Source: Streptomyces luteolifulvus
GTDB taxonomy: Bacteria; Actinomycetota; Actinomycetes; Streptomycetales; Streptomycetaceae
Assembly (NCBI RefSeq): GCF_008806595.1
Contig: NZ_VZRB01000002.1
Coordinates: 310,001-374,000 of the forward strand
Reading direction: 5' to 3'
Length of the DNA stretch: 64,000 nucleotides
Shown: piece by piece, positions 1 to 13,021 of the stretch
How the letters are laid out: every line of letters starts with the position of its first letter
Position numbering within the stretch: the stretch's first letter is position 1
Program-made: the position numbers and the translations under genes
The notes under the pieces: generated by a model
What the model saw: the letters and a program-made list of their open reading frames with translations, nothing else
The model's database searches: none
Told to the model about the DNA's origin: nothing

Positions 1-597
1 GTGCTCCTGCTGGGCATGATGCTCGGCGAGATCGCGCCCGGCGGTGTCGGTTCCGGTCTCTACGGCATGCTGATCATGGCGATCATCGCGGTGTTCCTCG
101 CCGGGCTGATGGTCGGCCGCACGCCCGAGTACCTGGGCAAGAAGATCGGCACCCGCGAGATCAAGCTGGCCGCCTGCTACATCCTCATCACCCCCGCGCT
201 GGTGCTGATCGGCACCGCGGTGGCGCTGGCTCTGCCCGACGGCAAGGACGCCATGACCAACATCGGGGCACACGGCTTCTCCGAGGTCCTGTACGCCTAC
301 ACGTCGGCCTCGAACAACAACGGCTCCGCGTTCGCGGGATTCGGAGCCAACACCGAGTTCTTCAACACGACGCTGGGCCTGTGCATGGCCCTGGGCCGGT
401 TCCTGCCGATGGTGTTCGTGCTGGCACTGGCCGGCTCGCTCGCCGAGCAGAAGCCGATCCCCGACACCGCGGGCACGCTTCGTACGGAGAAGCCGTTGTT
501 CACCGGCCTCCTTGTAGGCGCCATCATGATCGTCACCGGTCTGACGTTCTTCCCGGCCCTCGCGCTGGGCCCGCTCGCCGAAGGGCTGGCGGCATGA
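1..597 (+). CDS. kdpA: KdpA, potassium-transporting ATPase K+-binding subunit, 3' part only
   Basis: This is the C-terminal 198 residues of KdpA, the membrane subunit that binds and conducts K+ in the KdpFABC pump. The frame is already open at base 1, so the true start lies before the window. The visible part has several hydrophobic segments and the family motif [11 protein letters not shown] at about residues 105-115, which belongs to the fourth pore loop of the selectivity filter. The stop overlaps the kdpB start in an ATGA junction, which points to translational coupling. The assignment is secure from this motif and from the kdpB and kdpC genes that follow. Confidence 0.96.
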
Positions 598-2732
598 CCA
601 TCAACACCAAGAAGCAAGAGGACCCGATGTCCACGGTTACCCCGACCCGGGCACCGCACCAGGACGTACCGACCGGGCACAAGCCCGCCGAGGGCCGCGT
701 CGGCGCGGGCCTGTTCGACCCCAGGCAACTCGTCAAGTCACTGCCCGACGCGTTCCGCAAGCTCGGCCCGCGGGTGATGGTCAAGTCCCCCGTGATGTTC
801 GTCGTGCTCATCGGCTCGGTGGTCACCACCGTGCTGGCGATCAAGACCCCGGGCGACTGGTTCGGCTGGGTCATCGCCGCCTGGCTGTGGCTGACCGTCG
901 TCTTCGCCAACCTGGCGGAAGCGGTGGCCGAGGGCCGCGGCAGGGCCCAGGCGGACACGCTGCGCAAGGCCAAGACCGACACCGTGGCGCGCCGACTCGT
1001 CGGGGACTCCGAAGAGCGCGTGCCCGGCACGGAGTTGAAGGTCGGCGACCTGGTCGTGTGCGAGGCCGACGACACCATCCCCGGCGACGGTGACGTCGTC
1101 GAGGGTGTCGCCTCCGTCGATGAGTCGGCGATCACTGGCGAGTCCGCGCCCGTCATCCGCGAGTCCGGCGGCGACCGCAGCGCCGTCACCGGCGGCACGA
1201 AGGTGCTCTCCGACCGGATCGTCATCAAGATCACGACCAAGCCGGGCGAGACCTTCATCGACCGGATGATCAACCTGGTCGAGGGCGCAGCACGGCAGAA
1301 GACGCCGAACGAGATCGCACTGAACATCCTGCTCGCCTCGCTCACCATCGTCTTCCTGCTTGCGGTCGTGACGCTGAAGCCGTTCGCCATCTACGCGGGC
1401 GCCGACAAGCAGACCTCCATGATCGTGCTCACCGCGCTGCTGGTCTGCCTGATCCCGACCACGATCGGCGCACTGCTCTCCGCGATCGGCATCGCGGGCA
1501 TGGACCGCCTGGTCCAGCGCAACGTACTCGCCATGTCCGGCCGCGCGGTCGAGGCCGCCGGTGACGTCTCGACGCTGCTGCTCGACAAGACCGGCACCAT
1601 CACGCTCGGCAACCGCCAAGCGGCCGAGTTCGTGCCGGTGCGCGGGACCACCGAGCCCGAGGTCGCGGACGCCGCCCAGCTGTCCTCGCTGGCCGACGAG
1701 ACGCCCGAGGGCCGCTCGATCGTCGTCCTGGCGAAGGAGAAGCACGGTCTGCGCGAGCGGCACCAGGGGGAGCTCGTCGGCGCCGAGTGGATCGCCTTCA
1801 CCGCCCAGACTCGTATGTCGGGTGTGGACGTCGACGGGCGCAAGGTCCGCAAAGGCGCGGCCGGTTCGGTCATCGCCTGGGTCCAGGAGCAGGGCGGCAC
1901 GGTTGCCGAGGACGCGGACACGACCGCCAACCGGATCTCCGAGGCGGGCGGTACGCCGCTGCTCGTCGCCGTCGAGGACGACCGGGGTGCCCGGATCCTG
2001 GGTGTCATCCACCTGAAGGACGTCGTCAAGGAGGGCATGCGCGAGCGGTTCGAGGAACTGCGCCGCATGGGCATCAAGACCGTCATGATCACCGGCGACA
2101 ACCCGCTGACCGCCAAGGCGATCGCCGAGGAGGCGGGCGTCGACGACTTCCTCGCGGAGGCGACTCCCGAGGACAAGATGGCCCTGATCAAGCGGGAACA
2201 GGCGGGCGGCAAGCTGGTCGCCATGACCGGTGACGGTACGAACGACGCGCCCGCGCTCGCGCAGGCCGACGTCGGCGTGGCGATGAACACCGGTACGTCG
2301 GCCGCCAAGGAGGCCGGCAACATGGTCGACCTCGACTCCAACCCGACCAAGCTCATCGAGATCGTCGAGATCGGCAAGCAACTCCTCATCACCCGGGGCG
2401 CGTTGACGACGTTCTCCATCGCCAACGACGTCGCGAAGTACTTCGCGATCATCCCGGCGATGTTCGCCGTCGCCTACCCGTCGCTGGACAAGCTCAACAT
2501 CATGGGCCTGGCCAGCCCGGAGTCGGCAATCCTCTCCGCGGTCATCTTCAACGCGCTGATCATCATCGTTCTGGTGCCGCTCGCCCTGCGCGGCGTGCAG
2601 TACCGGCCGATGAGCGCCGACCGGATGCTCCGGCGCAACCTCGGCATCTACGGCCTGGGCGGACTGATCGCCCCGTTCATCGGCATCAAGCTCATCGACC
2701 TGCTCATCTCGTTGATCCCCGGGATCGGGTGA
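594..2732 (+). CDS. kdpB: KdpB, potassium-transporting P-type ATPase catalytic subunit
   Basis: KdpB hydrolyses ATP to drive K+ uptake through KdpA. Visible P-type ATPase marks are TGES near residue 180 (actuator domain), DKTGT with the phosphorylated Asp at about residue 331, and TGDGTNDAP near residue 545 (hinge). Hydrophobic helices lie at both ends. The 712-residue length is close to the family norm. I chose the ATG at 594 because it overlaps the kdpA stop. An ATG at 627, with AAGAGGA a few bases before it, is a credible alternative start giving 701 residues. kdpC follows after 6 bases, so kdpA-B-C form one operon. Confidence 0.97.
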
Positions 2733-2738
2733 AGGACC

Positions 2739-3350
2739 ATGAACAACTCCGTGGCAAACACCGGACGCCTGGCATGGGCGGCGCTGCGCATGCTGCTCGT
2801 CCTCACCGTCGTGACCGGCGTCATCTACCCGCTCGTGGTCACCGGCATCGGCCAACTCGCCTTCCATGACAAGGCGAACGGCTCGATCGTCAAGGTCGAC
2901 GGCAAGGAGGTCGGCTCCAGGCTGATCGGCCAGCGCTGGAACATCAAGGGCACCGACAAGCCGGACCCGAAGTGGTTCCACGGGCGGCCGTCCAACAGCA
3001 ACTACGACGCGCTGGCCACCGGTTCCAGCCAGCTGAGCGCCGGCAACCCCGAGCTCGTGAAGATGGTGAAAGCGGCGAAGAAGCAGGTCGCCGAGTTCAA
3101 CGGCGTACCCGAGTCCGAGGTGCCCAAGGACGCGGTCACCGGCTCCGCCTCCGCCATCGACCCTGACATCTCCTCGGACTACGCGGACATCCAGGTCAAG
3201 CGGGTCGCCGAGGCGAACGGCCTGACAGTCGCCCAGGTCGAGAAGCTGGTCAAGGACCACACCGACGGCCGCGCTCTCGGCTTCATGGGCGAGCCGCGCG
3301 TCAACGTCCTCGAACTCAACATCGCGCTCAAGGAACTGGCCGACCGCTGA
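2739..3350 (+). CDS. kdpC: KdpC, potassium-transporting ATPase accessory subunit
   Basis: KdpC is the single-span subunit of the Kdp pump and is thought to aid assembly and nucleotide binding. The 203-residue product has one N-terminal membrane segment at about residues 12-32. The family sequence GRPSNSNYDALATGSSQL follows near residues 85-102, and a polar C-terminal domain ends with the GEPRVNVLELN motif. It begins 6 bases after kdpB, with GAAGGA as ribosome site, and closes the structural operon. A 118-base gap then separates it from kdpE. Confidence 0.96.
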   Translation: MNNSVANTGRLAWAALRMLLVLTVVTGVIYPLVVTGIGQLAFHDKANGSIVKVDGKEVGSRLIGQRWNIKGTDKPDPKWFHGRPSNSNYDALATGSSQLSAGNPELVKMVKAAKKQVAEFNGVPESEVPKDAVTGSASAIDPDISSDYADIQVKRVAEANGLTVAQVEKLVKDHTDGRALGFMGEPRVNVLELNIALKELADR

Positions 3351-3468: not shown

Positions 3469-4152
3469 ATGACCCGGGTGCTGGTGGTGGAGGACGATCC
3501 ACAGCTCGTACGAGCCCTCGTGATCAACATGCAGGCACGCCAGTACGGAGTGGATGCCGCGCCGGACGGCGCCACCGCGCTCCGACCGGCCGCCGCCCGC
3601 CAGCCGGACGTGGTGGTGCTCGACTTGGGCCTGCCCGACATGGACGGCGTCGAGGTGATCAAGGCGCTGCGCGGCTGGACCCGGGTGCCCGTGCTGGTCC
3701 TGTCCGCCCGGACGGCGTCCGACGAGAAGGTCGCCGCCCTCGACGCGGGCGCCGACGACTACATCACCAAGCCGTTCAGCATGAACGAGCTGCTGGCCCG
3801 GCTGCGGGCCGCCGTCCGCCGTACCGAAGCTCTGCCGATGGCACCCGAGACGACCATGGTCACGACGAGCGATTTCACCATCGACCTGCTGGCCAAGAAG
3901 GCCACCAGAGGCGGCCGCGACATCCGGCTCACCCCAACCGAGTGGCACCTGCTGGAGATCCTGGTCTGCAACCCCGGCCGCCTGGTCACCCAGAAGCAAC
4001 TCCTCCAGGAGGTCTGGGGGGCAACCTACAGCGACAAGACCAACCATCTTCGGATCTATATGGCCCAGTTGAGACGAAAACTCGAAACGGACCCCTCCCA
4101 CCCCCGCTACCTCATCACCGAGCCGGGCATGGGCTACCGCTTCGAGTCATGA
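3469..4152 (+). CDS. kdpE: KdpE, OmpR-family response regulator
   Basis: This 227-residue regulator has a receiver domain with acidic residues EDD at positions 8-10, the phospho-acceptor Asp at about D52 (VVVLDLGLPDMDG) and the conserved Lys at about K99. The C-terminal winged helix ends LRRKLE...GYRFES, as in OmpR/PhoB proteins. It matches KdpE, which activates kdp transcription at low K+ or turgor. AGGAAGG lies about 12 bases before the ATG. Its partner kinase KdpD usually sits next to it; here the only intact kdpD starts at 9854, 5.7 kb downstream, beyond unrelated genes and a second, degraded kdpE fragment. Confidence 0.95.
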   Translation: MTRVLVVEDDPQLVRALVINMQARQYGVDAAPDGATALRPAAARQPDVVVLDLGLPDMDGVEVIKALRGWTRVPVLVLSARTASDEKVAALDAGADDYITKPFSMNELLARLRAAVRRTEALPMAPETTMVTTSDFTIDLLAKKATRGGRDIRLTPTEWHLLEILVCNPGRLVTQKQLLQEVWGATYSDKTNHLRIYMAQLRRKLETDPSHPRYLITEPGMGYRFES

Positions 4153-4172
4153 CCCGCTCTCGATCCTCCTGA

Positions 4173-4553
4173 CCACACACGATTGCCTGCCTGGTTCAGG
4201 CCGGTGCCTCGCCGTATGCCGTGGTGGACCAGGTCCGGCAGCAACTCGTCGAGATCCTTGGCCTGCGCGCCTGCCGCTTCGAACACGGCACGCTGCTCGG
4301 CCGGCACCCCCGCCTGGAGCAGGACGGCTCGCTGACCGTCGGGCGCGCCAACTGGGACCTGGACAAGGACAGCTGGCCCGGCGAGGAGATCGAGCTGCGC
4401 GCCTCGGTGGGCGGCCGTTACCTCGGCCGGTTCATGCTCCTGCCGGAACCCGGCGCCGTACCACCGCCTCTTCAGGCACGCCTGGTGGCCGTAAGCCTCG
4501 CCGACCACGTCGGTGCCGCACTCGACACCGCAGGGCCGGTACTCGACCGCTGA
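4173..4553 (+). pseudogene. Remnant of a DUF4118/GAF-type sensor protein
   Basis: An open frame of 127 codons runs from just after a stop at 4170 to a stop at 4551. Its first good start is only a GTG at 4221. The product (QQLVEILGLRACRFEHGTLL, then LEQDGSLTVG, then RFMLLPEPG) resembles the soluble GAF-like C-terminal part of Streptomyces DUF4118 membrane proteins, which share membrane segments with KdpD. The hydrophobic N-terminal part expected in that family is absent, and kdpE ends only 21 bases upstream. I infer a 5'-deleted gene. A functional 110-residue cytoplasmic protein from 4221 cannot be excluded. Confidence 0.5.
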
Positions 4554-4618: not shown

Positions 4619-5935
4619 TCATGTCGCCTTCGCACCCACACCTCCGACCAGGGCTGTGAAGTAGTCACGGTCCCTCCGGTCATTGAGGTTCACCTCCTCG
4701 TACTCGTGCCGGGGCCAAAGGGGGCGGCCGTCGATCCATGGGACGACGGTGGGCCCGGCGTCGAGCCAGCCGTGCAGATCGACCGTGCCTACCGCTGGGG
4801 GTATACCGCGTCTCGGATGCCTGGGCGTGCCTGGCGGGTTGACTTCCATGGCGGCTTCCGGCAGATCCTCCGGACCTCCGTGGACGGCAAAGAGGACCAG
4901 GACCAGTCCGTCGTCGAGGCCGGGCAACAACACGTAGCGTTTGGGCACGGGAAGGGGCGCCCGAGCGGCCTGCACCAAGCCTTTCACCGCGGGCATCCCC
5001 TGAGTAATCATCCGGCGGCCGAACCGGAGTGCGTTGATGCCGGACAGGGCCGCGAGGATCAGCGGCACCAGGATGTCCTGGTCCTTCGCCAGGAGCCACC
5101 ATGTCAGCACCATCGCGATGGCGAAAGCAGCGTTGACCACGGCTGGCCAGACGTACGAGATCTCCAGCAGGGCCGGCACGCGCCACCAGGGCACGGCACG
5201 GATGTCGGGTTCGCGGCGCGGAGCGGTTCCGTCCTCGTCCTCGATCGCCTGTCGGCGGGCCGCTTCGGCCATGGCCGCGTACGACAGGTCCGGCTCCCGG
5301 CCCTCGATGGGGTGGTCGTCCACGCCGGCCTGCGGCTGCCGGGGCTGCGGCCTGTTCAGGAGCCCCTGTCGTTCCGCCGTCAACACGTCCTTGCGGCGGG
5401 TCCGCTCGGTTCGGGGACGGCGTGCCCACAGCAGGTGCTCGCCGCCGGGCTGCGCGAGCACACCGCCGGTGCGCGCGTCGCCGCACCACCACAGCACGCC
5501 TCCGGGGTCGGGGTTGGCCAGGTGGTATCGCGGCTGCAGCGTCCGGACCGACAGCGGGATCACGTCACCCGTCTGCGGGTGGCGCAATACCGTACGGGGT
5601 TTACCCTGGGATGAAATGGCCACAGCGGAGCAGGCGATCCACGGGTGGGTGGACAAGGACCGCCGCATGCGGCGGTAGTTGACGAGGGCCGCCACGCCGA
5701 CGATGGCGGTGACCGGGCCGCCTCCGACGCAGAAGACGGCGATGTCGTTCAGCCAGCCGATTCCGGCTTCGTCGGCCGGCGGACCGACCATCAACCCAAC
5801 CACGACGGCCCCGAGGCCGCCCCCGAGCCAGGCCCAAGCGCGCCGACGGAACCCGGCAAGAGCGAACGCCGTCCCGGGATACGCGATCCCGGTCGCCGTG
5901 TCCGTCCCTGAGCGTGACTTGCGCAGTGCGGTCAC
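4619..5935 (-). CDS. Hypothetical membrane protein, 438 residues
   Basis: I do not recognise this family. The GTG start at 5935 is preferred because GGAGAAG lies a few bases before it; the frame is open further upstream without a better signal. The product has two hydrophobic segments near residues 30-75 and two more around residues 265-320. Between them is a polar section rich in Arg, with many Pro, and a hydrophilic tail follows. The layout of paired helices around a cytosolic domain is common in actinobacterial proteins of unknown function. It is probably the last gene of the leftward group starting at 8519, after the small membrane protein at 6012-6374. Confidence 0.7.
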   Translation of the reverse strand: MTALRKSRSGTDTATGIAYPGTAFALAGFRRRAWAWLGGGLGAVVVGLMVGPPADEAGIGWLNDIAVFCVGGGPVTAIVGVAALVNYRRMRRSLSTHPWIACSAVAISSQGKPRTVLRHPQTGDVIPLSVRTLQPRYHLANPDPGGVLWWCGDARTGGVLAQPGGEHLLWARRPRTERTRRKDVLTAERQGLLNRPQPRQPQAGVDDHPIEGREPDLSYAAMAEAARRQAIEDEDGTAPRREPDIRAVPWWRVPALLEISYVWPAVVNAAFAIAMVLTWWLLAKDQDILVPLILAALSGINALRFGRRMITQGMPAVKGLVQAARAPLPVPKRYVLLPGLDDGLVLVLFAVHGGPEDLPEAAMEVNPPGTPRHPRRGIPPAVGTVDLHGWLDAGPTVVPWIDGRPLWPRHEYEEVNLNDRRDRDYFTALVGGVGAKAT

Positions 5936-6011: not shown

Positions 6012-6374
6012 TCACCACCGCCGCCCACCGGCGGTGCTGGGCATCTCATCAAGTTCCTTCGGTTGAAGAGCCCTTCGGTAGAACCACTCCCCCAGCTGCG
6101 AGCCGCCCATCAGTCCCGCCGCGAACATCAAGAATCCGACCTGCACGATGAACCCGAGAAACGCGGCGTCCTCGGTGTCCAAGCCACTCCACCGCAGCAG
6201 CGGAACGACCAGACCGCCGACCCAGATGACCAGCAGAGCGACGCCCCGTACGCGTATGCCCCACGGAGTGGTCCGGCGCCGGACCCACTTGGGCGCCCGG
6301 CCGCGCAATGAGGCGATCGCCAGGGGCAGGGCGAACGCCGACCAGCCGATCGGCCAAAGCCACAGGAACACCAC
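6012..6374 (-). CDS. Small membrane protein, 120 residues
   Basis: This is a hypothetical protein with three predicted membrane segments: about residues 3-22, 43-62 and 73-92. A basic stretch (RGRAPKWVRRR) lies between the first two and a polar tail follows. The GTG start at 6374 directly follows another GTG, so the exact start is uncertain by a codon or two. It sits 76 bases before the next leftward gene and 90 bases after the flotillin gene, so it probably shares their transcript. No function can be assigned from sequence. Confidence 0.65.
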   Translation of the reverse strand: MVFLWLWPIGWSAFALPLAIASLRGRAPKWVRRRTTPWGIRVRGVALLVIWVGGLVVPLLRWSGLDTEDAAFLGFIVQVGFLMFAAGLMGGSQLGEWFYRRALQPKELDEMPSTAGGRRW

Positions 6375-6464
6375 TCACACTCCACTTCCGGGAAACCACC
6401 CAGCGAGCACAAGCCCGGGCAGCTCAAGGGCCGCCCTGGCTCGCTCCGCTGATCAGTACCTATG

Positions 6465-7898
6465 TCAGCCGGTGATCTCGACCTTCCCGTTGGCCTCGGC
6501 GGGTGCCGTGGTCGCGGGCTGCGCGCCATCAGCGCGCTGGGTGATGCCCTTCAGCAGCTCGGCGAGGTCGACTCCCGTCGTGGAGCTGAGAAGTTCGACG
6601 CCCTGGGCGACGTTGTCGGCGACCGTACGGGAGAGCTGGCTGGCCCCGTCGGTGGAGATCACCGTCATCTTGTCCACCGCGCTGAGCGGCTCGGACGCCT
6701 TGGCGACCACCTGCGGCAGCACCTCGACCAGCATCTGCAGCACGGCCGCGTCGCCGTACTGCGCGAAGGCGTCGGCCTTCTTCTGCATGGCCTCGGCCTC
6801 GGCGGCACCCTTGGCTCCGATCGCGGCGGCCTCCGCCTCACCCTCGATGCGGACCGCTTCGGCGAGGGCGGCACGCTGCGCCTTCTCGCCCTCACCGGTC
6901 AGCCGGGCCCGCTCGGCGGCCGCCTCGGCCTCCTTGACCAGCGCGATGCGGCGGGCCTCGGCCTCCTGCTCGGCCTGGTAGCGGGCGGCGTCGGCGGGCT
7001 TGCGGACCTTGGTGTCCAACTCGCGGTCGGTCAGCGCGGCCTGGCGTTCGGCAACCTTCTCCTGCTCGGCCAAAACCTCCTGGTTCCGCGCCGCCTCGGC
7101 CAGCGGACCCGCGGCCGCGGCACGCGCCGCCGCCTCGTCGGTCTCGGCCTTGATCTCCGCCTGCTTCAGCGCGAACGTCCGCTGGGCGATCGCGATCTCC
7201 TCCTCGGCCTTCAGCCGCGCCTGCTCGGCGGCACGGCGGGCGACGGCCTCGGCGATGTCCGCCTCCTGCTTGGCGCGGGCGGCCTCCGGGCGGCCGAGGT
7301 CCTCCAGGTAGGAGCCTTCGGTGGTGATGTCCTGGATCTGGAAGGCGTCCAGGACGAGGCCCTGCCCGGACAGGCTCGCTTCCGCCTCCTCGGCGACCTG
7401 GCCGGCGAACGCGGCCCGGTCGCGGATGATGTCCTCCACCGACATCCGGCCGACGATGGCGCGCAGCGCGCCCGACAGCACCTCCTGGGTGAAGCCGACG
7501 ATGCCGTCCTGCTGCATCAGGAACCGCTGAGCCGCCGCGCGGATCGAGTCCTCCGTGCCGCCGACCTTGACGATCGCGACCCCCTCCAGGTGGGCCTTGA
7601 CGCCCCGCAGCGTGACCGCGCCGCGCACCGCGACCGGGATGTGCCGCGAGGACAGGTCGAGGGTGAACTTCTGCTGCACAAACGGCACGACGAACACGCC
7701 GCCGCCGACCACGACCTTCTGCCCACTGTTGTCAGTGAACACGCGGCCCGTCTCGGGATCGGTGGCCTTCTTTCCCCGCCGCCCGGTGACGATGAACGCC
7801 TCGCTCGGACCCGCCACCTTGTAGCGGGTGATCACGACAAGACCGAGTAGGACAAGGAGTACGACGACTCCGATCACAGCGATGACAACTGGGCTCAT
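6465..7898 (-). CDS. Flotillin-like SPFH-domain membrane protein
   Basis: The 477-residue product starts with one membrane anchor (about residues 2-25), followed by an SPFH/band-7 domain. A long coiled-coil section rich in Ala, Glu, Arg and Lys (about residues 215-400) follows, with the EAEAxxxA repeats typical of flotillins. Such proteins oligomerise on the inner membrane face and organise membrane domains. The ATG at 7898 was chosen over the open frame to 7964 because GAGGGGGGA precedes it. The upstream gene encodes an NfeD-like protein, the usual flotillin partner, which supports the call and suggests a two-gene unit. Confidence 0.9.
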   Translation of the reverse strand: MSPVVIAVIGVVVLLVLLGLVVITRYKVAGPSEAFIVTGRRGKKATDPETGRVFTDNSGQKVVVGGGVFVVPFVQQKFTLDLSSRHIPVAVRGAVTLRGVKAHLEGVAIVKVGGTEDSIRAAAQRFLMQQDGIVGFTQEVLSGALRAIVGRMSVEDIIRDRAAFAGQVAEEAEASLSGQGLVLDAFQIQDITTEGSYLEDLGRPEAARAKQEADIAEAVARRAAEQARLKAEEEIAIAQRTFALKQAEIKAETDEAAARAAAAGPLAEAARNQEVLAEQEKVAERQAALTDRELDTKVRKPADAARYQAEQEAEARRIALVKEAEAAAERARLTGEGEKAQRAALAEAVRIEGEAEAAAIGAKGAAEAEAMQKKADAFAQYGDAAVLQMLVEVLPQVVAKASEPLSAVDKMTVISTDGASQLSRTVADNVAQGVELLSSTTGVDLAELLKGITQRADGAQPATTAPAEANGKVEITG

Positions 7899-8638: not shown

Positions 8639-9099
8639 TCACATCCCGTCCGACAGAACACACTCAGGTTCGAGGCGAAGTGCATGGCGTTGGACGATTC
8701 GGGAGATGTCACGTGCGGGGATGATGCCCACCAGGCGCCGCCCGTCGATGACGAGGATGCGCATGCCACTGCCCGGGGAGAGCTTTTCGAGCACGTCTTC
8801 CTTGCCCATCTCGGTCATCCCGCCCAACGCCCACAGCGTGATGCTCTGGACCGGGATGCCTTTCGCCGGGCCACGATCGCGTGCGCGGCCTCATGAGCCA
8901 GCAGACTCCCGAGCAGCAACAGAGCCCCGGCCAGGCCGGCGACCGTGCAGGCGGCGTTCGACTGGTCCGGAACCCTGGCGGGGAGCGTCCGGCTGCCCAG
9001 GCTGTACCCGAACAGCACCACGAGCAGGGGCACGGTCCAGTGGAGGCGCAGCGGCACCCCGAGCAGGCGTCCCATCCGTACCGAGCTGTTCATCACCAT
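8639..9099 (-). pseudogene. Broken M50 site-2 protease with CBS domain
   Basis: The first frame (9099 down) begins like a Streptomyces site-2 metalloprotease: two hydrophobic segments and the zinc motif HEAAH at residues 69-73. After about residue 80 it runs into nonsense and stops. In another frame the expected continuation appears (KGIPVQSITLWALGGMTEMG), then jumps directly into the end of a CBS domain (RILVIDGRRLVGIIPARDIS). So there is a frameshift near 8875 and an internal deletion of the remaining membrane helices and most of the CBS region. Both lesions are visible directly. Loss of the second half of the active site means it cannot be a working protease. Confidence 0.8.
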
Positions 9100-9443
9100 C
9101 TCCTGCGGACGGTGTGGGTCCCCCTACTGACAGTGTCTCCCGTACCGGGGTCCCGGACGCCGGGCATGGATGATTGCGGCCGACAGCGAGGCTCTTCGGC
9201 GGTCGGGGCGTCTCGGGCGAGGTGTCGCTCCATCTGAACTGCGGCGGAGCCGTCGGTACTGCGCGAAACACACCGGGTGGCGCAGAACCCTCCGGGCTGC
9301 TGCAAGTCGGGCGCGGCCGCGTTAGGAAAGCGTCAAGGAAGTGGCCAGGGGCGTAAGAGCCGTGTCAACAGCGGGCTAATCGGCGTTGCGGCGGGGTTAC
9401 TTCTAGAGGTCTGTTCCTTCCGAATCTCGTCTAGGAGCTCGCG
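9100..9443 (+). other. Intergenic region before the second kdp locus
   Basis: No convincing gene was found in these 344 bases. They separate the broken protease gene (leftward) from the rightward kdpF locus, so they should hold the promoters of both. The last 130 bases are less GC-rich than their surroundings and contain the tandem repeats listed separately. AGGAG at 9433-9437 is the ribosome site of the first small gene. Confidence 0.6.
9319..9340 (+). promoter_or_regulatory. Tandem 11-base direct repeats, candidate KdpE site
   Basis: GCGTTAGGAAA (9319-9329) is followed at once by GCGTCAAGGAA (9330-9340), 8 of 11 positions identical. OmpR-family regulators such as KdpE bind direct repeats spaced by about one helical turn, and this pair lies 104 bases before the first gene of the kdpF locus. 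That it is a KdpE operator is inference from position and geometry. Confidence 0.4.
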
Positions 9444-9527
9444 ATGGCCGATGTGGCCTTCGTATGCGCCACGGTCGCGGTGTTCGCGCTGGCGGCTCTC
9501 ATCGCCCGGGGGGTGGGTCGGCTGTGA
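9444..9527 (+). CDS. 27-residue single-span membrane peptide before kdpF
   Basis: A short gene encodes a peptide that is hydrophobic throughout (MADVAFVCATVAVFALAAL...) and ends with basic residues, as a one-helix membrane protein would. AGGAG at 9433-9437 is correctly placed before the ATG. The stop overlaps the kdpF start (GTGA), the arrangement seen for coupled small subunits. From memory, similar short reading frames precede kdpF in actinobacterial kdp operons, though I know of no assigned function. It may be an extra small Kdp subunit or simply a coupling peptide. Confidence 0.65.
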   Translation: MADVAFVCATVAVFALAALIARGVGRL

Positions 9528-9613
9528 GCGCCGAGAACATCGTCGGGCTGATCGTGGCCGTGGCCCTGCTGGGCTATTTGGTCCTCGCGCTGATCTTTCC
9601 AGAGAGGTCCTGA
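9524..9613 (+). CDS. kdpF: KdpF, small stabilising subunit of the Kdp pump
   Basis: The 29-residue product (MSAENIVGLIVAVALLGYLV, then LALIFPERS) has the form of KdpF: one membrane helix containing GLIVAVALLGYLVxALxxPE. KdpF stabilises the KdpABC complex. Here it stands apart from kdpABC. Only 16 bases after its stop the DNA resumes as a degraded 3' fragment of kdpE, so the kdpA, kdpB and kdpC genes expected between the two are missing from this locus. Whether it can serve the KdpABC encoded at the left edge is unknown; a kdpF may also exist just outside the window. Confidence 0.85.
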   Translation: MSAENIVGLIVAVALLGYLVLALIFPERS

Positions 9614-9629
9614 GCACGGCACGGGGCGT

Positions 9630-9797
9630 GGGTACCAGAAGCGTCTGCTTCGGGGCATGTGCGGACCGTCGTACGAGGCGCCTACCGGCAACCTGCGGGT
9701 CCGCGTGACCCGGCAGCGGCGCAAACTGGAGGCAGACCCATCGCATCCACGCCACCTCAGCACCGGGCCGGCCGCGGGACACAGCGTCGAGAGGTGA
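9630..9797 (+). pseudogene. kdpE: Degenerate 3' fragment of kdpE
   Basis: The frame ending at 9797 reads YQKRLLRGMCGPSYE, then NLRVRVTRQRRKLEADPSHP, then RHLSTGP. Over about 50 residues it aligns with the KdpE C-terminal winged helix encoded at 4152 (TQKQLLQEVWGATYS, then HLRIYMAQLRRKLETDPSHP). The end is altered (AAGHSVER in place of GMGYRFES) and the receiver domain is absent. It is therefore the tail of a second kdpE copy left by deletion, just upstream of intact kdpD. The similarity is direct sequence observation; the deletion history is inference. Confidence 0.82.
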
Positions 9798-9853
9798 TCT
9801 CCTTGCTGTCCCGAACCGGCCCGGCGAGCGCAGAACGATCGGAACCCTGAACC

Positions 9854-12418
9854 ATGGCACGCGGCAAGCTACGGATCTACCTCGGTGCGGCGCCTGGCGT
9901 CGGCAAGACCTACGCGATGCTGTCGGAGGCGCACCGCCGCGTGGAGCGCGGCACCGACTGTGCAGTGGCCTTCGTGGAGCACCACGACCGGCCGCGCACC
10001 GAGGTGATGCTGCACGGCCTGGAGCAGATCCCGCGCCGGGAGCTGGAGTACCGGGGCGCGGTGTTCACCGAGATGGACGTGGACGCCGTGCTGAAGCGTC
10101 GACCGGCCGTCGCCCTGGTGGACGAGCTGGCCCACACCAATGTGCCCGGCTCCCGGAATCCCAAGCGGTGTCAGGACGTCGAAGAGCTACTGGAAGCCGG
10201 GATCGACGTCATCACGACCGTCAACATCCAGCACCTGGAGTCGCTCGGCGATGTCGTCGAGTCGATCACCACAGTGCGGCAGCGGGAGACCGTACCGGAC
10301 GAGGTGGTACGTCGCGCCGACCAGATAGAGCTGGTCGACATGTCACCGCAGGCGCTGCGCCGCCGGATGGCACACGGCAACATCTACAAGCCCGACAAGG
10401 TCGACGCGGCCTTGTCGAACTACTTCCGGCCGGGAAATCTGACCGCGCTGCGGGAGCTGGCGTTGCTGTGGACCGCGGACCGGGTCGACGAGTACCTGCA
10501 GCAGTACCGCGGGGAACACGACATCCGCTCCACCTGGCAGGCCCGCGAGCGGATCGTCGTCGGGCTCACCGGCGGCCCTGAAGGACGGACCCTGATCCGG
10601 CGAGCGGCCCGGCTGGCTGAGAAGGGCGCGGGCGGCGAGGTACTGGCCGTCTACATCTCCCGCAGCGACGGGCTGACCTCCGCCTCGCCCAAGGAACTCG
10701 CCGTACAGCGCACCCTCGTCGAGGACCTGGGCGGCACCTTCCACCAGGTCGTCGGCGACGACATCCCGCAAGCGCTGCTGGACTTCGCCCGGAGTGTCAA
10801 CGCCACCCAGATCGTGCTCGGCGTAAGCCGTCGGCGCGCCTGGCAGTACGCCTTCGGGCCCGGGGTCAGCGCCACGGTCGCCCGCGAGTCCGGGCCGGAC
10901 CTCGACGTCCACATCGTCACCCACGAGGAGGCTGCCAAGGGCCGCGGATTGCCTGTGGCACGCGGCGCCCGGCTCGGCCAATCCCGAATCACCGCCGGAT
11001 GGCTGGTCGGCGTGGTCGGCCCGGTGCTGCTCACCCTGCTGCTCACCTCGGTATGGAACACCCGGCCTGCCGACGACGGGCCCGGCTTCGCCAACGAGGT
11101 GCTGCTGTTCCTGACCCTGACCGTGGGGGCCGCACTGCTCGGCGGGCTGCTGCCCGCGCTGGCCGCGGCCACGGCCGGCTCGCTGCTGCTGAACTACTTC
11201 TTCACCCCGCCCACCCACACCTGGATCATCGACGATCCGGCGAACGTCCTCGCCATCATCGTCTTCTTCGCGGTCGGTGTCTCGGTCGCCTCGGTCGTGG
11301 ACCTCGCCGCCCGCCGCACCTACCAGGCCGCCCGGCTGCGCGCCGAGTCCGAGACCCTGTCGTTCCTGGCGGGCAGCGTGAAGCGGGGCGAGGACAGTCT
11401 GGAGGAGCTGCTGGAGCGGGTGCGGGAGACCTTCGGGATGGAGTCGGTGGCGCTGCTGGAACGGGGCGGCGAGGTCGAGCCGTGGACCTGCGCGGGCAGG
11501 GTCGGGACGGCCCGTCCCATCGAACGCCCGGTGGACGCCGACGTCGACATGCCGGTCGGCGACCACCTCGTACTCGCCCTGTCCGGGCGGGTGCTGCCTG
11601 CCGAGGACCGCCGGGTGCTGGCCGCCTTCGCCGCCCAGGCCGCCGTCGTTCTGGACCGCCAGCGGCTGAAGCAGGAAGCCGGACAGGCCCGCGAGCTGGC
11701 CGAGGGCAACCGCATCCGCACCGCGCTGCTCGCCGCCGTCAGCCATGATCTGCGGACCCCACTGGCCACCATCAAGGCCGCGGTCACCTCGCTGCGCTCC
11801 GATGACATCGAATGGTCAGAAGAGGATCAGGCGGAACTGCTGGCGAGCATCGAGGAAGGCACCGACCGGCTCGACCACCTGGTGGGCAACCTGCTGGACA
11901 TGTCCCGGCTGCAGACCGGCACCGTCGCCCCGCTGATCCGCGACGTGGACCTGGACGAAGTGGTGCCGATGGCCCTGGGCGGCGTTCCCGAAGGTTCCGT
12001 CGCCCTGGACATTCCCGAAACCCTGCCGATGGTCGCGGCTGACCCCGGGCTGCTGGAGCGGACTGTCGCCAACGTCGTGGAGAACGCCGTGAAGTACGGC
12101 CCGGAGAACGAGGTCGTCCTGGTCTCCGCCAGCGCGCTCGGCGACCGGGTCGAGCTGCGGGTCGTCGACCGCGGCCCTGGCGTGCCCGACGAGGCCAAGG
12201 AGAGGATCTTCGAGCCGTTCCAGCGGTACGGAGATGCTCCTCGGGGCGCCGGGGTCGGCCTGGGCCTCGCGGTCGCCCGCGGCTTCGCCGAGGCCATGGG
12301 CGGCACGCTCATCGCCGAGGACACCCCCGGCGGCGGCATGACCATGGTCCTCACTCTCAAGAGCACGCCAGGCCGTCCACCGGTACCTCCCGACCTGCCC
12401 GCCCACTTCACCTCCTAA
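9854..12418 (+). CDS. kdpD: KdpD, K+/turgor-sensing histidine kinase
   Basis: The 854-residue product has the full KdpD layout. An N-terminal KdpD domain carries Walker A GAAPGVGKT at residues 11-19 and DELAHTN near residue 90. A universal-stress-like domain spans about 230-365, and four DUF4118 membrane helices about 380-485. A GAF-like region follows, then the phospho-acceptor His at about H631 (AAVSHDLRTPL) and a C-terminal ATPase domain (VENAVKYGP near 742; GVGLGLAVARG). It phosphorylates KdpE. The ATG follows the kdpE remnant by 56 bases. It is the only intact kdpD here and presumably signals to the KdpE encoded at 3469-4152. Confidence 0.96.
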   Translation: MARGKLRIYLGAAPGVGKTYAMLSEAHRRVERGTDCAVAFVEHHDRPRTEVMLHGLEQIPRRELEYRGAVFTEMDVDAVLKRRPAVALVDELAHTNVPGSRNPKRCQDVEELLEAGIDVITTVNIQHLESLGDVVESITTVRQRETVPDEVVRRADQIELVDMSPQALRRRMAHGNIYKPDKVDAALSNYFRPGNLTALRELALLWTADRVDEYLQQYRGEHDIRSTWQARERIVVGLTGGPEGRTLIRRAARLAEKGAGGEVLAVYISRSDGLTSASPKELAVQRTLVEDLGGTFHQVVGDDIPQALLDFARSVNATQIVLGVSRRRAWQYAFGPGVSATVARESGPDLDVHIVTHEEAAKGRGLPVARGARLGQSRITAGWLVGVVGPVLLTLLLTSVWNTRPADDGPGFANEVLLFLTLTVGAALLGGLLPALAAATAGSLLLNYFFTPPTHTWIIDDPANVLAIIVFFAVGVSVASVVDLAARRTYQAARLRAESETLSFLAGSVKRGEDSLEELLERVRETFGMESVALLERGGEVEPWTCAGRVGTARPIERPVDADVDMPVGDHLVLALSGRVLPAEDRRVLAAFAAQAAVVLDRQRLKQEAGQARELAEGNRIRTALLAAVSHDLRTPLATIKAAVTSLRSDDIEWSEEDQAELLASIEEGTDRLDHLVGNLLDMSRLQTGTVAPLIRDVDLDEVVPMALGGVPEGSVALDIPETLPMVAADPGLLERTVANVVENAVKYGPENEVVLVSASALGDRVELRVVDRGPGVPDEAKERIFEPFQRYGDAPRGAGVGLGLAVARGFAEAMGGTLIAEDTPGGGMTMVLTLKSTPGRPPVPPDLPAHFTS

Positions 12419-12434: not shown

Positions 12435-12853
12435 TCAGGAGCCGGCGTCGCGGTCCCGCCTGGCGTAATCCGCCGGTACGCGCCCCGGGCGTTGACGAGG
12501 CGGGCGATCACCGTACCGAGCAGCGCCGCGACCATCAGGAAGGCGAGCCGCCCCGCATCCGGATACCCCTGCCACGCAAGCTCGCCATGTGGGGGCACCG
12601 CGAAGCCGTTGAGGAACAGCCAGCACACCGCGGCGGTGCCCAGCGCCGCGACGAAGCGGGCGCACACTCCCAGCAGCGCCGCCAGGACGCACAGCACCAG
12701 CAGGGCGTGCAGCGGGTCGGCAAGCCCCTTCGCCGCGCTGAGCGCCCCCACCGTCAGCAGCGCCCCGATGAAGGCCGCCCCCCAGACGAAGGGTGTGGGG
12801 ACAGGCTCGGGTACCGGCCTGACCGCGGCCCGCAACGGTCGCCACTCCACCAT
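12435..12853 (-). CDS. Small membrane protein with lost or shifted stop
   Basis: The ATG at 12853 has AAGGA in position. The first 137 or so residues form a plausible protein with hydrophobic segments at about residues 22-45, 48-80 and 100-120, resembling DUF4118-like helices of KdpD-associated proteins. Beyond RRITPGG the frame has no stop: it stays open to 11816, antisense to the kdpD C-terminus, which is unlikely to be real coding sequence. Each of the other two frames stops within about 15 bases of 12435. I infer a small indel near the 3' end; the end coordinate given is the nearest out-of-frame stop. Confidence 0.5.
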
Positions 12854-13021
12854 GAGCGCATCCTTCCCCGGGTCACCTGCGCTGCTCCCATAACAGCGCC
12901 TCCAGGACGGTTCCGCGCCTGGCGACCGCCCTCTAACGAACTCCGTACGGGCACGGCTTCCCTGGACGCGCGACCCGTGGCGAACGAGCAAACAGCAGCG
13001 ATACGGCGGTTCGCGGTGCAC

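Follow-up and report, generated by a model that had tools for sequence, protein, structure and literature searches.

Complementary gene losses at two kdp loci of Streptomyces luteolifulvus and a predicted cross-pairing of their kinase and regulator

Which sensor kinase activates a response regulator whose own kinase gene is missing from its operon? Two-component partners normally adjoin and co-evolve. Duplicated pairs may lose complementary halves, and the survivors must then cross-pair. The question is raised by two kdp (potassium pump) loci in a 64,000-nucleotide stretch of Streptomyces luteolifulvus (contig NZ_VZRB01000002.1, positions 310,001 to 374,000; the whole stretch is called the window), which comes from a 9.03-Mb draft genome of 105 contigs in an assembly rated 99.98% complete. 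Viewed with its left flank, the first locus (operon 1) consists of kdpX, kdpF1, kdpA, kdpB, kdpC and kdpE1, and no kdpD adjoins kdpE1 in the window or in that flank. The second locus consists of a pair of predicted KdpE boxes, kdpX, kdpF, a stump of kdpE and an intact kdpD (kdpD2, with the product KdpD2 or D2). Our main conclusion, to which we give a probability of about 0.7, is that the two loci are complementary and that KdpD2 now serves KdpE1.

All genes of both loci are on the forward strand. In operon 1, the 3' part of kdpA (1..597; its start lies 1.07 kb beyond the left edge of the window, at 4933 of the flanking stretch L018) is followed by kdpB (627..2732, start set by homology), kdpC (2739..3350, 229 bits to PF02669) and intact kdpE1 (3469..4152). 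A genome-wide search found this kdpC as the single match. The second locus lies 5.3 kb from kdpE1. Its predicted KdpE sites, box A (9320..9336) and box B (9352..9368), precede kdpX2 (9444..9527), an open reading frame (ORF) for a hydrophobic peptide of 27 residues, for which the name kdpX was coined in this work. Then follow kdpF2 (9524..9613), the kdpE stump (9630..9797), a spacer of 57 nt (9797..9853) and kdpD2 (9854..12418). With 5.7 kb between them, kdpD2 is the nearest kdpD to kdpE1. A third unit, on contig C21, holds a full kdpD3-kdpE3 pair with 82% and 75% identity to kdpD2 and kdpE1 of the window.

We examined the family membership of these genes. The product of kdpF2, a single-helix peptide, passed the cut-offs of Pfam KdpF PF09604 (35.7 against 21.2 bits) and NCBIfam TIGR02115 (37.1 against 26.85 bits). 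KdpD2 contained the N-terminal KdpD, Usp, DUF4118 membrane, HisKA and HATPase_c domains above Pfam cut-offs, and its catalytic motifs were found by eye in the alignment. Its best-scoring NCBIfam family was PRK10490, yet the score was under the equivalog cut-off (515 against 1123 bits). Since this model was presumably built on proteobacterial KdpD, the missed cut-off limits the word equivalog for KdpD2 and not its domain make-up. KdpE1 had receiver and winged-helix domains above Pfam cut-offs and KdpE as its best NCBIfam family, under the equivalog cut-off (245 against 325 bits). The stump translates into 55 residues and a stop, and its best NCBIfam family was also KdpE (PRK10529, E 1.4e-5, model positions 173-220 of 225), with a score of 24.6 bits that is far under the whole-protein cut-off of 325. 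Its match to the Pfam DNA-binding domain was below cut-off (21.5 against 26.2), and a search of the genome with the KdpE of the window found it with 47% identity over residues 174-226 (E 9.7e-9). The stump does not qualify as a KdpE, having no start, no receiver and no complete winged helix (the first third of the DNA-binding domain is missing); it is a KdpE pseudogene of the 3' 55 codons. These results bear out a sequence-only reading of the window, which had described a kdpF, a degraded kdpE 3' fragment and an intact kdpD here, without kdpABC, and a left kdpABC-kdpE without adjacent kdpD. That reading had also proposed a look left of base 1 for another kdpF, and we found kdpF1 there (4835 of L018) with the 27-residue ORF before it (4755), about 1.2 kb out.

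We next compared the two loci with those of relatives. Layouts were annotated in 20 relatives, 20 further stretches (19 plus L109) and 79 named kdpD loci (including L109), some of whose contigs end before kdpD. Two layouts are common in Streptomyces: kdpX-F-A-B-C followed, mostly after a gap, by kdpD-kdpE (or with kdpD-kdpE separate), and kdpX-F-A-B-C-E-D. As kdpE stands before kdpD in the latter, a stump followed by kdpD is the expected residue of an internal deletion. The order kdpX-F-stump-kdpD was found in one of the 79 named loci, that of Streptomyces albicerus TRM68295 (L109). When window positions 9600-9853 were searched against 392 genomes of the genus, 205 had some match; among the matches listed, only the window genome and relative G350 matched over the full length, and relative G097 matched 138 bases next to kdpD. 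In G350 (L188), X-F-A-B-C-E-D1 is followed by intervening genes and then X-F-stump-D2. The contig of S. albicerus begins in kdpB and shows B-C-E-D1, then X-F-stump-D2. G097 has X-F-stump-D2, no first operon between the genes that flank it elsewhere, and an X-F-A-B-C-E-D operon on another contig. The copies of kdpD, kdpE and kdpC number 2, 2 and 1 in the window genome and 3, 2 and 1 in each of the other three. G350 and S. albicerus thus share the remnant and keep the other copy with its own kinase, as a decayed duplicate predicts, and the account of two copies with complementary losses, one of the two offered by the sequence-only reading, was supported.

Because the broken second locus is common to four species, the loss of kdpABC and of the 5' part of kdpE is placed by this comparison before their separation. 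The layouts further indicate that the window lineage, alone of the four, lost kdpD1 from an otherwise kept operon 1, later and by one deletion. Window positions 3900-4182 and 4181-4485 matched 6256-6538 and 9765-10069 of L188, so that the scar is the 2-base overlap of the flanking matches at 4181..4182. Computed from the match ends, the deletion measures 3,228 bases against G350 and 3,185 against S. albicerus. It removed about 3.2 kb, taking kdpD1 together with the 5' portion of the gene behind it, and no remnant of kdpD1 was found between the two matches flanking the junction. The 3' remainder of the cut gene is a 110-residue ORF (4221..4553) without a Pfam family; a stop is already present in that gene in both relatives.

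The descent of the kinases was examined with a tree of 58 KdpD, built by a quick method with support from the Shimodaira-Hasegawa-like approximate likelihood ratio test (SH-aLRT) only. The four D2 formed one clade (100), with the kinase of relative G007 as sister (95), and D1 of G350 and S. albicerus fell into a separate group, mostly from operons with kdpE before kdpD, with weak support (80). Forcing D1 and D2 into one clade was 48 log units worse and was rejected (p of the approximately unbiased test, p-AU, 0.0147). The 55 decayed codons of the stump hold too little signal for a tree, and it was therefore compared by identity counts, with the G350 stump alone: at the DNA level this has 71-73% identity to E1 of the window and of two relatives, and up to 80% to kdpE genes from other units. 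Its likeness is to the KdpE of separate D-E units, whereas the KdpE of G007, which stands beside the D2-lineage kinase in one operon, sits in the E1 group (18 rows, SH-aLRT 96). These results support the conclusion, argued from tree and identity counts, that the surviving kinase D2 and regulator KdpE1 derive from different operon copies, as the sequence-only reading had supposed; D1 and D2 are not sisters, and D1 stands beside D2 in relatives. A recent tandem duplication of operon 1 was also considered. The second kdpX-kdpF is no closer to copy 1 (84%) than to other genomes (best identity 86%, G097 apart). Given these identities and the non-sister kinases, a recent tandem duplication was rejected. 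The kdpX2 peptide has 70% identity to the copy before kdpF1.

We then investigated selection and decay at the second locus in six species pairs (the window, G350, S. albicerus and G097), with the ratio of nonsynonymous to synonymous divergence (dN/dS) estimated by NG86. For D2 the ratio was 0.075-0.127, with an uninterrupted full-length frame in each of the four species, and for D1 it was 0.061 in one pair. KdpE1 gave 0.112-0.172, with three of the six pairs using the KdpE of the separate operon of G097, and 0.112 against G350. The low ratios and open frames indicate that kdpD2 is under purifying selection. The genes before it appear from their substitutions to be decaying. Although intact in the window, kdpF2 has changed at codon positions 1+2 versus 3 in ratios of 7:1, 9:2, 5:4, 8:3, 8:3 and 10:6, and in G097 GTA replaces its start codon. 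Single-base length changes have arisen in the stump of S. albicerus, and that of G097 has lost a larger piece. The uncorrected divergence of the stump was 0.153 (window-G350), 0.182 (window-S. albicerus), 0.068 (G350-S. albicerus) and 0.305-0.365 with G097, against D2 dS values of 0.154, 0.166, 0.144 and 0.240-0.261; in five pairs its rate is thus close to the silent rate or above it, and in one pair below it. The 57 nt before kdpD2 do not differ among the window, G350 and S. albicerus and have 4 changes in G097. For the pair window-G350, the stump rate gives a probability of about 8e-5 for no change there, and the D2 third-codon rate one of 1e-3. From this conservation, the stretch is likeliest to be the translation start region of kdpD2.

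Could the second locus still be under the control of KdpE? A 17-base matrix was built from the 160 bases before kdpX in 31 operons (training consensus CGTAAGRGANNCGTCAA), with both window copies, both G350 copies and the second copies of S. albicerus and G097 left out of training; the training rows necessarily fit a matrix made from them. The two best sites were exactly 32 bp apart in 29 of the 31 operons, and of the other two, one had them at 64 bp and one had a single box. In the window, box A (CGTTAG-N5-CGTCAA) scored 19.7 bits and box B (CGTAAG-N5-TGTCAA), 32 bp after it, 21.8 bits, with 22.1 and 23.0 bits for copy 1. The scores in untrained relatives were 19.7/20.9 (S. albicerus copy 2), 21.4/18.6 (G097 copy 2) and 22.1/23.0 (G350 copy 1), and the spacing was 32 in all six untrained rows. 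Scores above 10 bits were confined, over the 64-kb window, to the two copy-2 boxes; three simulated windows had 0, 2 and 0 sites of this strength, none of which reached 12. A scan of the own genome with at most one mismatch gave 13 matches, compared with 7 in a reversed control, and 5 of the 13 lay at the three kdp units. Among the judged kdpD of the named loci, 58 of 79 lacked any kdpA, B, C or E in the 400 bases before them; a single box of at least 15 bits preceded 31 of these 58 separate units, often weaker than the paired boxes of pump operons. None of the 21 kdpD closely behind kdpC or kdpE (D1 and D2 of S. albicerus included) had such a box, and 4 of 1512 control stretches did. According to PMC3264566, the E. 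coli KdpE site consists of two direct repeats of 6 bp with 5 bp between them. The Streptomyces box has the same 6-5-6 layout with other letters (CGTAAG/CGTCAA against TTTATA/TTTACA) and is a predicted KdpE site.

With these elements, KdpD2 could serve KdpE1 as follows. Phosphorylated KdpE would bind the box pair 5' of kdpX2, and the old kdp promoter would drive kdpX-kdpF-stump-kdpD2 as one transcript. At low potassium, KdpD2 would phosphorylate KdpE1 in trans, and KdpE1 would then raise expression of the pump operon and of its own kinase alike, each from a separate copy of one promoter. The window D2 and the D1 of G350 share 90 of 100 residues in the phosphotransfer domain, among them the ones near the histidine, as well as 200/226 in the N-terminal KdpD domain, 114/129 in Usp, 109/141 in the catalytic end and 100/119 between membrane and phosphotransfer domains. 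The membrane sensor is identical at 91 of 133 positions (68%). D1 of G350 against D3 of the window shows the same pattern (phosphotransfer 88/100, membrane 96/131), so that faster change of the membrane domain is a general feature. All four D2 carry six additional residues in this domain, which are absent from seven other aligned kinases and correspond to gaps in at least 90% of 54 other kinases; read from the hydrophobic stretches, this insert should lie in the first extracytoplasmic loop. Because G007 joins a D2-lineage kinase and an E1-group regulator in one operon, such a pairing exists in nature.

Several observations weigh against this pairing, which is itself argued from similarity. KdpE1 (98% identical to that of G350) has three private residues, L40P, Y193H and V196I, compared with 53 other Streptomyces KdpE, and these may have weakened it or retuned it after the loss of kdpD1. 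By alignment to 6lgq chain D, which we take to be E. coli KdpE, Y193H and V196I flank the residue aligned with R193, and the counterparts of R193, R200 and T215 are kept. These three are DNA-contact residues of E. coli KdpE (PMC3264566). Box B of G350 copy 2 is degraded (9.0 bits beside 18.6 bits for its partner), and 27 of the 58 separate kdpD units scored less than 15 bits, down to 2.9. No promoter consensus of the sigma-70 type was found at 9200-9960 in a scan that does not cover all Streptomyces promoters. The complete kdpD3-kdpE3 pair on C21 could phosphorylate KdpE1. In three relatives D2 coexists with another operon-borne kinase, so it was first kept for a reason other than replacing D1.

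Other explanations must be weighed against the pairing of KdpD2 with KdpE1. The most serious, though we consider it unlikely, is that KdpE1 is mainly served by KdpD3, or that KdpE3 took over the pump promoter, with KdpD2 as a spare that has another partner. The full C21 pair, the phosphotransfer domains of D3 and D2, almost equally like that of G350 D1 (88 and 90 of 100), the private KdpE1 residues at positions fixed in 53 others and the long company of D2 with other operon kinases in three relatives would fit it. However, D2 lies less than 6 kb from KdpE1 and has its promoter type in common, and KdpE1 keeps the aligned contact residues and the low dN/dS of 0.112 to G350. The claim of the sequence-only reading that kinase and regulator must still pair was nevertheless too strong, since kdpD3-kdpE3 on another contig could serve either partner. 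We think it very improbable that KdpD2 is an inert leftover on its way out. The missing kdpABC, the changing stump length, the position 1+2 changes of kdpF2 and the GTA start in G097 are what decay would leave, but the frame of kdpD2 is open in four species at dN/dS 0.075-0.127, with 0 of 57 changes before its start among three of them.

The absence of kdpD1 could also be an assembly error, as the genome is a draft and D1 and D2 of G350 have 81% DNA identity with a longest common word of 38 bases. A collapse of D1 and D2 would yield a hybrid kinase and not a junction of unrelated bases outside both genes. Furthermore, the first 13 kb contain no N, and no third kdpD was found in an assembly rated so nearly complete, and such an error is extremely unlikely. 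The chance that an insertion or inversion broke a single operon in two, the other account offered by the sequence-only reading, is close to nil. The loci are indeed close together with complementary gene contents, but kdpX and kdpF are each present twice, both kinases stand side by side in G350 and S. albicerus, the single clade of D1 and D2 was rejected by the tree test and the stump is closer to KdpE lineages other than E1. We therefore rejected the split.

Provided that KdpD2 serves KdpE1, a sensor swap is possible, though less likely than not. One deletion would have taken KdpE1 away from KdpD1 and put it under a kinase of different descent, with 90% identity in the phosphotransfer domain but 68% in the membrane sensor and with the six-residue insert there, giving a positive loop in trans and a signal for switching the pump different from that of sister species.

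A number of side observations were made on the small genes. The kdpX2 ORF, which the sequence-only reading had passed over, encodes a peptide that begins MADVAFV and overlaps the kdpF2 start by four bases. A similar hydrophobic 27-residue ORF precedes kdpF in many Streptomyces operons, and kdpX matched no Pfam or NCBIfam family. In the 14 relatives in which either small ORF was found (E 1e-3, at which short ORFs may be missed), both were present in 9, kdpF alone in 3 and the 27-residue ORF alone in 2. The kdpX-kdpF pair may outlast the rest of an operon: it is followed by broken kdpA pieces in L200 (G165:C1:323000-342900), and it stands without kdpA in L206/L059 (G075:C8), one of 28 loci checked. 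An extra kdpF-like ORF precedes kdpX-F-A-B-C-D in L149 (Streptomyces noursei B-3066), and no kdpE was found in that stretch. L196 (G091:C1:1787000-1806900) has kdpX-F-A-B-C-E without adjacent kdpD in a genome that also has kdpX-F-A-B-C-E-D (L195), and kdpD may thus have been lost from E-D operons more than once. In L194 (G172:C1:6557000-6576900), kdpX-F-A-B-C-E-D is followed by a second kdpE, of the other lineage, and a partial kdpD on the opposite strand.

In the surroundings, the neighbouring potassium uptake genes trkA and trkH were considered as a reason for the survival of D2. In an 8.1-kb stretch of G350 (L189), only trkA residues 191-259 and trkH residues 6-97 were found with kdpD2 intact, and this idea is weakened. 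The gene behind D1 and a small ORF at 12435-13021 look like DUF4118 by eye; the tested pieces gave no Pfam match, and the label is not used. A 94-residue ORF on the reverse strand (8815-9099) has a HEAAH motif by eye and is perhaps a cut gene of the site-2 protease type; it had no Pfam match, and the sequences that match it in G350 and G097 are likewise interrupted. No Rfam family reached its gathering threshold in the window, and a simple scan of 9200-9960 found no intrinsic terminator.

The genes themselves belong to known families; in families and domains they are like the KdpD/KdpE and KdpFABC systems of E. coli and actinobacteria. Unlike in those systems, the kinase and regulator near the pump stem from two operon copies, and what stands out is an unusually complete record of partner loss. 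The general idea of complementary loss is extended here in that the order of events can be read from living relatives (G350 and S. albicerus) and that the kinases differ by descent rather than by a recent tandem duplication. A comparable case is Francisella tularensis SchuS4, in which a kdpE pseudogene stands beside an intact kdpD, as at the second locus, and KdpD of that genus is reported to phosphorylate a regulator encoded elsewhere (PMC6584805). That regulator belongs to another system (PmrA/QseB), whereas the window has a paralogous KdpE 5.7 kb off, and kdpD2 still has a kdp promoter region of its own before it. KdpDE are widely conserved but unanalysed in Streptomyces, according to a 2023 review (PMC10117811). 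Among the titles and abstract starts listed in our search of open-licence papers (Streptomyces KdpDE, kdp orphans, duplication and pseudogenes, KdpE sites, partner swap), we found no account of this arrangement and no Streptomyces KdpE site.

The boxes offer a concrete predicted motif for the KdpE regulon of Streptomyces, as a pair before the pump operon and singly before separate kdpD-kdpE units. The sister species represent the state before the proposed exchange, with the operon's own kinase, and the window the state after it, with that kinase deleted and the foreign one kept. Because both states are present in existing strains, the exchange of partners between paralogous kinases and regulators is directly testable, and the locus is a natural test of two-component partner swapping. 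If the sensor swap is true, the signal at which this strain switches its potassium pump would differ from that of its sister species, with the loop closed in trans.

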